Notes under the pieces: generated by a model
Databases searched by the model: none
What the model was told of the DNA's origin: nothing
The model's input: only the letters and a program-made list of their open reading frames with translations
Position numbers and translations under genes: made by a program
Part shown: piece by piece, positions 22,127 to 27,836 of the stretch
Position numbering within the stretch: position 1 is the first letter of the stretch
Layout: each line of letters starts with the position of its first letter
Assembly (NCBI GenBank): GCA_038729425.1
Contig: JAVYSB010000003.1
Coordinates: 6,859 to 47,436, forward strand
DNA: 40,578 nt
DNA from: Thermoplasmataceae archaeon
GTDB taxonomy: Archaea; Thermoplasmatota; Thermoplasmata; Thermoplasmatales; Thermoplasmataceae
Direction of reading: 5' to 3'

Positions 22127-22328
22127 AGAATATCTGGCTGTAGCTGCAAAAATAGATTAATCGCGACGTGCCTAGGTTTGTCGAAATGGCACATTTTCAA
22201 AATTATGCACCTAATGAATCGATCAGATCGGAAGTCGTCAAATGGATCCTTTGAGTGTGAAATTTAAGCCCAAACAGGTAGACTTGTCACTAGTTAGTGT
22301 CGAAGAAACGGTGACCAAGAAATTAATA

Positions 22329-22413
22329 TGCAGGGGATGGGATTTGAACCCACGTATCCCTACGGAACCAGACCCTCAATCTGGCGCCTTTGACCAATCT
22401 CGACAACCCCTGC
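22329..22413 (-). tRNA. tRNA-Leu (anticodon GAG)
   Basis: On the minus strand an 85-nt class II cloverleaf can be drawn. The acceptor stem GCAGGGG pairs perfectly with CCCCTGC, followed by discriminator A at 22329. The anticodon arm is CCAGA-TTGAGGG-TCTGG, giving anticodon GAG for Leu codons CUC and CUU. The long variable arm and the T arm GTGGGTTCAAATCCCAT-type loop are normal. No CCA end is encoded. No intron is seen. Confidence 0.95.
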
Positions 22414-22434
22414 AGGTTTCCCTTTATTCTCTCT

Positions 22435-24695: not shown

Positions 24696-25345
24696 TTTTA
24701 TGCCAGGAAATTAAGAAGGGCTCTCACCAATAATTCCTGATTTTCGTACTTATTTGGGCAGTGCGTGGGAAAATTTCATGGAGGGCGACCGCGCCTCGTA
24801 CCGTGAAAATCCAATATTTTCTAATTGTGAACAAGAGTAAATAATTCAAGAAATTTTTAAGTATGTTCTGGTGTTATACGGCATTATATACATAGTTATA
24901 TGGCATTGATAGGTACGCGGAACGTATCGAAAGTTTCACTGTGGTTGTTAAATGGGAAAATATTATGGGGTGGTGAGGACGAGTGTAAAAACAGAAATTA
25001 CACTCAGGTCGTACTCATATAGAAATAGCCCGTGGATGACATGGTTGTTATAACTGATCGCTTCGGTACCTAAGTGCCCTGTAGTGAAGCCGCTTCGACC
25101 ATGAGTTCTTTACATTCTGGTTGTGTTTCAAACTTATATCTAACATATTGCCTTGACGAGAAAATTAAATCGGAGTTGTGAAGGTTAGCAAACTTTGACT
25201 ATAAGTGCTATAGTTTTCCCATTCAGAAATACAACATTTAATGTACCTTGGTTTATGAAGTTTAATAGCTTAGTTTGCACACCTAATTTAAAATTCAGCC
25301 TTATATATGTAAGATATTATGAACCGATTAAACAAAATGATGCAC
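24696..25345. other. 650-base region without a recognisable protein gene, rich in hairpins
   Basis: No ORF here looks like a real gene on either strand. The left part has a nested stem-loop: TTTCA (24774-24778) with TGAAA (24804-24808), enclosing GAGG (24781-24784) with CCTC (24794-24797). The centre, 24911-25110, is described separately as a candidate RNA. The right part, 25140-25345, is very AT-rich with no clear structure. Confidence 0.4.
24911..25110 (+). ncRNA. candidate structured non-coding RNA
   Basis: A TATA-like ATTATATA (24883-24890) would place a transcription start near 24911. From exactly there the sequence folds locally: GGTACG-cggaa-CGTATC (24912-24928, one G-T pair); GAGTGTAA-9 nt-TTACACTC (24981-25005, eight perfect pairs, extended by GAC/GTC across a 2-nt bulge); and GCTTC (25060-25064) with GAAGC (25086-25090) enclosing GGTAC-CTAA-GTGCC. 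No protein frame spans it. It lacks the conserved blocks of RNase P or SRP RNA that I would recognise. Exact ends and strand are inferred. Confidence 0.35.
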
Positions 25346-25462
25346 CTAAAATCCCTGACAGCAGTCCAGAAAAATTGTGTGCCCACAAATGGGGCACGCC
25401 GAATTATGCCTGTACGCGTAGCAGGATTCACACTGACATTCAATGTAGCAGTCTTCACACAT
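25346..25462 (-). CDS. 38-residue cysteine-rich putative zinc-binding mini-protein
   Basis: On the minus strand, 16 bases after the ribonucleotide reductase stop, ATG at 25462 opens a 38-residue ORF ending with TAG at 25346-25348. Nine of the 38 residues are Cys (positions 2, 5, 9, 11, 14, 23, 26, 34, 35), with two His. The spacing gives MCEDC, CQCESC and a textbook zinc-knuckle CPICGH near 23-28, then DCCQGF at the end. Such Cys pairing is hard to obtain by chance. A GTG at 25489 could extend it by nine residues into the reductase gene. It is probably co-transcribed with the reductase. No specific family is recognised; metal binding or a thiol redox role is inferred. Confidence 0.65.
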   Translation of the reverse strand: MCEDCYIECQCESCYAYRHNSACPICGHTIFLDCCQGF

Positions 25463-25478
25463 ACTAACAATGAAAATG

Positions 25479-27836
25479 TTATTTATCACATTTTCCAGTT
25501 GGGCACGCAGGATCGAATGTGGAGTCCAGCTTGAGATATTTCACCGGCAGCTTAGCTATGAGCTCAAGGGCTTTCTCTTCCTCAGTCTCCTTCTTCTCGA
25601 CCTTCTTTTCAGGTTTCTTCTCCACTTTCCCCGGCTGTTCTTTCCTTGTGGCCGTTCCTGTATACAACACCTGCTGGGTCTTGCTCTGATCTCTGTAAAC
25701 GGTTATTCCCTTGCAGTGAAGGTCTTTGGCCATCCTGTAAGCCTTGCCTATGTCCTCTGGTGAGGCGTCTGCAGGCAGATTAATGGTCTTTGACACCCCA
25801 GAGTCACAATATCTCTGGAATGTGGCCTGCATCAAAACATGCCACTCCGGTTCTATTTCATGTGCCGTAACGAAAAGCCTCTTGATCTCAGGATCTATGT
25901 CCATGCCATGCAGATTACCGCTCTTAGCAACTTCCCTCATTAGGTCTTCTGAGTAGAGATTTTTTGCGCGGAGCATTTCCTCGAATAGGGGATTGACTTC
26001 GATAAGTTCCTGACCGTTGAGTACATGCCTGACGAAAGCGATGGCAAAAAGGGGTTCAATCGACGATGAGCATCCAGCGATTATTGATATGGTGCCCGTA
26101 GGAGCAATTGTAGTAGTTGTGGAGTTCCTCATCCTGACCCCCTCCCGCTCGTACCTTGATCCGTACCATCCCGGGAAAACGCCACGTTCATCAGCAAGAA
26201 TTTTTGATTCCTCGTGAGACTCATCCTGTAAGAAAGCCATGACTCTTTCTCCCATTACGAGGGCATCCCCACTGTTGTATGATATGCCCAGTTTTATGAG
26301 CATGTCAGCAAACCCCATCACGCCTAGACCTATTTTTCTCGTCTTTCTGGTCATGTTCTTTATCTGCACGACCGGAAACTTATTGGCATCCACAACATTA
26401 TCAAGGAATCTTGTTGACAGTCGTATTACATTTTTCAGCCTCTCATAATCAATATCGCCATCTTTGACAAATTTAGCCAGGTTTATGGATCCAAGATTGC
26501 AGGATTCGTATGGCATAAGTGGCTGTTCACCACATGGGTTTGTGGCCTCAATCTCGGCTATGTGGTCCACTGGATTCTTTCTGTTGATCTCGTCCAGAAA
26601 GATCAGACCAGGATCCGCAGTTTTCCAAGCCTGGTTGATGATGCTATCCCACATGGTCGTTGCCTTAATCCTTCCAGTAATTTTCCCATCTCTAGGATTC
26701 CTCAGCTCAACGTATCCGTCAGAATCAAGCTTCTCGAAGAATTCATCAGTCATTCCCACTGAAATATTGAAATTACTCAGGATAGTATTCTCGGCATCTT
26801 TCTTGAGTATGAATTCCATGATATCTGGGTGATCGTACCTGAGTATGCCCATGTTTGCCCCTCTTCTCTTTCCGCCCTGCTTTATTACGTCAGTTGTTGT
26901 ATCAAAAATTCTCATGAATGATACTGGGCCAGAGGCGACTCCTTTCGTGGATCCAACTATGTCATCTTTAGACCTGAGCCTTGAGAACGAGAAGCCTGTT
27001 CCTCCGCCGGACTTGTGTATTTCTGCGGTATATTTGAGGGCGTTAAATATACCATCCACACTGTCCTCTACAGGGAGGACAAAACACGCTGAGAGCTGTC
27101 CCAGTCGGGCTCCAGCATTCATCATTGTGGGTGAATTGGGAACGTACTCTAGGTTGAGCATCATTTCCTCATATTCACTGATGTTCTCCTCAAACTTCGT
27201 CGGTTTTGTATACAGAAAGTCCATGAATTCCTCAAATTTGCCCTTGATCTGGTCCTCCTTAGTCAATTCGTCAAAACCACGCTTGAGAACTTCTACCTGT
27301 GTCTTTGAAAGAGGTGAGCATTTTCTCCCACTCTCAGGCAGTTTCCCGGTAATCTGATAGGTTCTATATTCATAAAGTGCGTCTATTACACCAACATGGG
27401 TGGCTACCCGCCTGAACATCTGTCTTGGGGTCTCGATGATCTTTCCCTCTTCATCCTTAAGGAGGTATCTCGCCTCCAACACCTTTATGGCATTCAGAGA
27501 TAGCTTGAGATCGTCTTTAACTCCAATAGAAGCTTTCTCTTCCCTGATGATCCTTCTCCTTTCCCTGTAGAGAATGTACGCCTTGGCAACATCAACGAAC
27601 GACTGGTCACCATTTCTGAAGGTCATAAGGGCAGTTTCGACCTTGTCTTGGATCTGCTCTACTGTGGGTTTCTTTGACAACTTGGATACTTCCCTTACTG
27701 CTATCTTTGCTACCTCTTCGGCATCCTTCATCGTGCCTATCTTAACCGAGAGCATCGCCTTGTATACGGCCCTGATAATCTTCCCCTCGTCGAAGATGGC
27801 CTCGGTCCCGTCGCGTTTTATAATAGTTTTGATCAT
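25479..27836 (-). CDS. nrdJ: adenosylcobalamin-dependent (class II) ribonucleotide reductase
   Basis: This 785-residue enzyme makes deoxyribonucleotides from ribonucleotides using a B12-generated thiyl radical. An ATP-cone ([20 protein letters not shown]) occupies about the first 90 residues and should sense ATP/dATP. Active-site segments are [21 protein letters not shown] near 232, [21 protein letters not shown] near 438 with the radical Cys and Glu, and [18 protein letters not shown] near 582. A Lys/Glu-rich linker near 735-760 precedes the C-terminal tail [11 protein letters not shown], whose two Cys should shuttle electrons to the active site. AGGTGA (27841-27846) is 4 nt before the ATG. 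A Cys-rich mini-gene follows. Confidence 0.95.

Follow-up and report, generated by a model that had tools for sequence, protein, structure and literature searches.

Bacterial metallothioneins (SmtA/BmtA) combine nine Cys and His in a very small protein, and nine Cys are likewise found in the cyanobacterial SmtA. Among archaea, 43 micro-proteins with two C(P)XCG motifs have been described in Haloferax, where 12 of 16 deletions have resulted in phenotypes, with the caution that a predicted zinc site may turn out to be empty (PMC10716476). Class II ribonucleotide reductases are a further point of reference, as they can possess a Cys-rich domain (CRD) of 150-220 aa, whose six Cys (CxxC-x9-CxxCxxC-x5-C) comprise four zinc ligands and two redox-active residues, and which is encoded by a separate gene, NrdJb, in the split NrdJa+b systems (PMC5704485).

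The window analysed here, a stretch of 40,578 nucleotides from a Thermoplasmataceae archaeon, contains a 38-codon gene with nine Cys directly behind the class II reductase gene nrdJ (Table 1). A first-pass annotation had considered its product either a metal-binding or redox partner of the reductase or a detached zinc-ribbon tail. The observation itself is confirmed, and the interpretation is half right: we regard the product as probably a micro-protein that stands alone and binds metal, most likely zinc, and that is specific to one archaeal family. It represents a new, strongly conserved and narrowly distributed Cys-rich family, whose carriers include the well-studied acidophiles Ferroplasma and Acidiplasma and which is apparently absent from the Pfam, NCBIfam and PHROGs catalogues.

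Table 1. Features of the locus, in positions of the window.
Feature	Position	Strand	Description
Nine-Cys mini-protein gene	25346..25462	(-)	ATG at 25462, stop ends at 25346; 38 codons
nrdJ, vitamin-B12-dependent class II ribonucleotide reductase	25479..27836	(-)	785 aa, intein-free; NCBIfam NF005010, Pfam
Sequence between mini-gene and nrdJ, possible promoter element	25463..25490	(-)	A+T-rich GATAAATAA spans the nrdJ stop, ~25 nt before the ATG
Central zinc-ribbon-like core	25379..25432	(-)	codons 11-28: C11xxC14-x8-C23-P-x-C26-G-H28
N-terminal MCxDC pair, proposed half of a second metal site	25445..25462	(-)	codons 1-6; C2 34/34, D4 32/34, C5 34/34
C-terminal D-C-C-Q-G-F motif, vicinal Cys	25349..25366	(-)	codons 33-38

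The reading frame and its conservation

Translation of the frame yields MCEDCYIECQCESCYAYRHNSACPICGHTIFLDCCQGF, 38 residues in length, which confirms the open reading frame of the first-pass annotation and now specifies its strand. The ATG is located 16 nt past the nrdJ stop on the same strand, and every one of the nine Cys (positions 2, 5, 9, 11, 14, 23, 26, 34 and 35) has been found exactly where it had been placed. The sequence CPICGH is present as described, although the name given to it, zinc knuckle, is imprecise and CPxCG zinc-ribbon knuckle is the proper one. An upstream GTG start at 25489, which would overlap nrdJ, has been rejected, as relatives of the same genus favour the ATG. Plus-strand frames over the mini-gene have been discarded as well: the plus strand of 25346-25462 is unrelated, and an overlapping frame at 25319-25534 is broken in a same-genus relative. 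Rfam has given no match to an RNA element across 24700-25700. Elsewhere in the window a tRNA-Leu (GAG) gene has been identified at 22328-22414 on the minus strand, and the short ORFs listed there are artefacts.

Strong homologues have been found within the same archaeal family in a search of 61 related genomes. A profile (A1) built from 16 of these homologues and run against the family genomes has recovered clear matches (E ≤2.2e-16) in 37 of 77 genomes, distributed over 9 genera; a weak partial match in the assembly G032 brings the raw tally to 38. Among 390 genomes of the phylum, the profile search has found none outside the family. A scan of the genomes of 84,980 species has returned 25 loci, all of Thermoplasmata/Thermoplasmatota, with Ferroplasma acidarmanus, Acidiplasma aeolicum and Cuniculiplasma sp. 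among the carriers. With regard to a viral origin, IMG/VR has yielded no homologues.

The homologues comprise 38-55 residues and show no stop codons at orthologous positions. All nine Cys are invariant in the 34 distinct coding sequences, with codons alternating freely between TGT and TGC, and twelve non-Cys columns, the start Met counted, are conserved to at least 90%, including D4, R18, H19, P24, G27, H28, L32, D33, Q36, G37 and F38. The ratio pN/pS, which is far below 1, has been determined to be 0.13-0.22 within the window's genus (Fisher p 1e-5 to 4e-9, indicative since the pairs are related) and mostly 0.03-0.28 in other close pairs, with a pooled value of 0.32. The mini-gene is a genuine coding gene under strong purifying selection. 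That it might be a spurious ORF with Cys arising by chance, as its shortness and the missing family-library match could suggest, is refuted by this conservation across the homologues, by their uninterrupted frames and by the synonymous switching of Cys codons, and is given practically no credence. As had been expected for a gene of this size, it is easily missed; it has no significant match in Pfam, NCBIfam or PHROGs.

In a NrdJ tree, used as a stand-in for the species tree, all carriers of the mini-gene fall into one clade, which also includes the non-carrier genera g6, g7 and g14. This pattern fits one presumed origin inside the family, followed by at least three losses (g6, g7 and g14), with the absence being solid in g6 (five genomes, 98-99% complete) and based on genomes of 81-87% completeness in g7.

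Relation to nrdJ and transcription

The neighbouring NrdJ matches the NCBIfam model NF005010 over its full length with 1354.9 bits (cut-off 1125) as well as the Pfam models PF02867, PF00317 and PF03477, and its C-terminus carries CPTGKC, as had been read correctly before. If the mini-protein acted as redox partner of this enzyme, its vicinal CC would hand electrons to the C-terminal Cys pair of NrdJ, like a detached Cys-rich domain, for which the separate gene of the NrdJa+b systems is the precedent. The short distance to nrdJ in the window, which is about the same in two congeners, and a loose same-strand linkage in genus g13, where the two genes are usually 1.6-27 kb apart, speak in favour of such a role. 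However, direct adjacency is kept among the relatives only in these three genomes (G000, G001 and G003), which represent one of the 9 carrier genera. In g12, Ferroplasma and g9 the genes are separated by 87 kb to more than 1 Mb, and outside the window's genus and g13 the mini-gene is generally located far from nrdJ or on a different contig. Its neighbours elsewhere are genes for amino-acid permeases, a tRNA synthetase of the W/Y type, a tetrapyrrole methylase or the OFeT_1 iron permease, and this change of neighbours among lineages counts toward a stand-alone protein.

The co-occurrence of the two genes also argues against a partnership, as nrdJ is present in 71 of 77 family genomes and in 19 of 19 genera compared with the 37 genomes of the mini-gene, and the CPxGKC-type Cys pair at the NrdJ C-terminus is alike in genomes with and without it. 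The TSCPD model (PF12637), which we take to be a profile of the CRD region of class II reductases, is not among the Pfam matches of the mini-protein and is absent from 76 of 77 family genomes. The Cys spacing likewise differs from that of the CRD, and the suggestion of a detached reductase zinc-ribbon tail is not supported. With adjacency, distance, co-occurrence, NrdJ C-termini and the TSCPD search all against it, a reductase partnership has been rejected as the main reading and is considered improbable; of the corresponding earlier proposal, the conserved mini-protein of metal-binding type has stood, and the partnership has not. The nrdJ neighbourhood is most likely coincidental outside the window's genus and possibly also within it. 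Adjacency in a single genome is thus weak evidence, as the link to the reductase vanishes once relatives are compared.

Several further observations concern nrdJ and its surroundings. The sole TSCPD match in the family, a 132-aa open frame (L109, G032:C37:12760-13005) with 23.2 bits against a cut-off of 22.8, derives from a fragmented assembly and is either contamination or a stray gene. In several family genomes, among them L032 (G001, same genus as the window), L096 (Ferroplasma) and L105 (G035), NrdJ contains an intein-like insert of 366-367 aa at the common site IEATNP|C...HN|CGEQP, which the window copy does not carry. In two of three loci of g18 (Acidiplasma-type; L040 and L052), a tetrapyrrole (cobalamin-type) methylase gene is located directly upstream of the mini-gene, for which an echo of B12 metabolism is possible but unproven.

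As for transcription, most lineages have a TATA-like hexamer whose first base lies 29-25 nt ahead of the ATG, and 27 of 50 motif starts fall into these five positions, in a motif set that has been picked by eye from related upstream sequences. Such a box at -29 to -25 corresponds to the layout of leaderless archaeal transcripts and points to a transcript of its own in most genera, where the mini-gene is probably monocistronic and leaderless. In the window's genus the TATA-like box is weak, and the A+T-rich stretch extends into the end of nrdJ, so that co-transcription with nrdJ and an own promoter appear equally possible there.

Candidate metal sites and function

The Cys of the homologues follow the pattern CxxC-x3/4-CxCxxC-x8-CxxC-x7-CC, which corresponds to a Cys content of 24% and, together with His28, to ten potential ligands within 38 residues. 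The density of predicted metal sites is consequently extreme. In the zinc-binding micro-protein that we favour, C11, C14, C23 and C26 would make up a zinc-ribbon site of the Nop10 type, and C2/C5 are proposed to pair with C34/C35 in a second metal site with C9 and H28 close by. His28 is kept or, in two divergent members, replaced by Cys, which is the kind of exchange expected of a metal ligand. At the C-terminus, C34, C35 and G37 occur in 34 of 34 distinct sequences, D33 and Q36 in 33, and F38 in 32. A small rigid surface, which YRHNxACP and GHTIFLDCCQGF would then form, could bind or regulate another macromolecule, by analogy with other archaeal zinc-finger micro-proteins that are thought to act in this way. 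However, no binding partner has emerged from the analysis, and the acidic net charge argues against simple nucleic-acid binding.

Some lineages depart from this common form. A divergent subtype (L016 and L017 in G019 and G011) carries the Cys in place of His28, and thus ten Cys, and has an altered C-terminal half; genus g17 contains both subtypes, which may reflect gene replacement or transfer. In the Ferroplasma and Acidiplasma copies (L033, L034, L035, L037, L040, L051 and L052), a short additional C-terminal tail, FIxHxY..., extends past CCQGF; the copy of Ferroplasma acidarmanus Fer1 (NC_021592.1, L033:8001-8153) comprises 50 aa.

Against the zinc reading, it has to be considered that every Nop10 and RING match falls short of either significance or a curated cut-off. 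A profile search of the PDB has returned weak local matches only (Nop10 zinc ribbon, S27ae and HVO_2753, E ~0.01-0.03), the AlphaFold2 model is of low confidence (pLDDT 61.8, pTM 0.32), and Foldseek has found nothing significant with this model. Weak matches to Prok-RING_4 (PF14447) in 4 of 16 members, with a best E of 0.003, and weak RING matches of the predicted model in Foldseek could hint at a RING- or treble-clef-like finger, which would be the adaptor of an archaeal complex for protein tagging or transcription. We consider this far from likely, as every match remains under the curated cut-off (15.3 bits versus 27 for the window protein) or under significance, the model is poor, and the Cys spacing is without the RING CxxC ending.

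The ten ligands exceed the need of two mononuclear zinc sites, which leaves room for a cluster or for a redox pair. The ligand-rich sequence might belong to a family-specific multinuclear thiolate-cluster protein, either an archaeal metallothionein or a minimal dithiol redox shuttle, which would operate through the vicinal CC and in the g1 lineage also serve the class II reductase; we hold this to be rather unlikely. To our knowledge, neither function has been established in an archaeal protein of this small size. As a metallothionein-like buffer, nine thiolates and one or two His would cluster several Zn, Cu or Cd and thereby protect acid-mine hosts. Such a role is suggested by the CxxC, CxC and CC motifs with the conserved His, by its carriers, which are Ferroplasma, Acidiplasma and Cuniculiplasma-type genomes, and by several g13 genomes (L043, L050) in which the gene of the OFeT_1 ferrous iron permease is divergent to the mini-gene at a distance of ~0.1 kb. 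However, the twelve conserved non-Cys columns are unusual in a sponge and more than a mere thiol sponge would require, metallothionein models of Pfam and NCBIfam give no match at E up to 1, and neighbouring metal genes are inconsistent among lineages, so that a buffer, too, seems a doubtful assignment. The phylogenetic profile of the mini-gene does not coincide with those of sulfocyanin-type SoxE, the OFeT_1 iron permease or the HMA metal-binding domain, which also speaks against a buffer, and no partner or pathway is thereby indicated. A literature search for a small Cys-rich protein or metallothionein described in Ferroplasma has found nothing relevant among the titles listed.

Comparison with known systems

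With the CRD/NrdJb of class II reductases, the mini-protein shares the character of a small terminal Cys cluster and, in one genus, a location near nrdJ. It differs in its size of 38 aa and in its nine, differently spaced Cys, which do not form the six-Cys array, and it is encoded next to nrdJ in 1 of 9 carrier genera, whereas the CRD is encoded with or fused to the reductase gene. Compared with SmtA/BmtA, the order of the Cys differs, many non-Cys residues are conserved, and the family models are not matched.

The resemblance to the Nop10 zinc ribbon lies in an identical central CxxCxxY-x5-CPxCG spacing, which is suggestive only: profile positions 11-29 alone align (E 0.014-0.03, with best E values of 0.012-0.02) instead of the whole length, the C-terminal region of Nop10 is missing, and additional Cys are present at the N- and C-terminus.

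Lastly, the haloarchaeal C(P)XCG micro-proteins (HVO_2753, HVO_0758 and Brz) carry four or eight Cys in CxxC pairs, whereas the mini-protein possesses nine together with a conserved His, a CxC and a terminal CC. Of the two C(P)XCG motifs of that class, it contains one clear CPxCG (C23-G27), its remaining pairs being CxxC without G, and the match to the class is only weak and local (6ydh, E 0.022). Yet both are archaeal single-domain proteins with CPxCG knuckles, often unannotated and shorter than 70 aa (PMC10716476, PMC6562870, PMC2253796), and with 38-55 residues all homologues of the mini-protein lie within the limit of <~70 of these micro-proteins.
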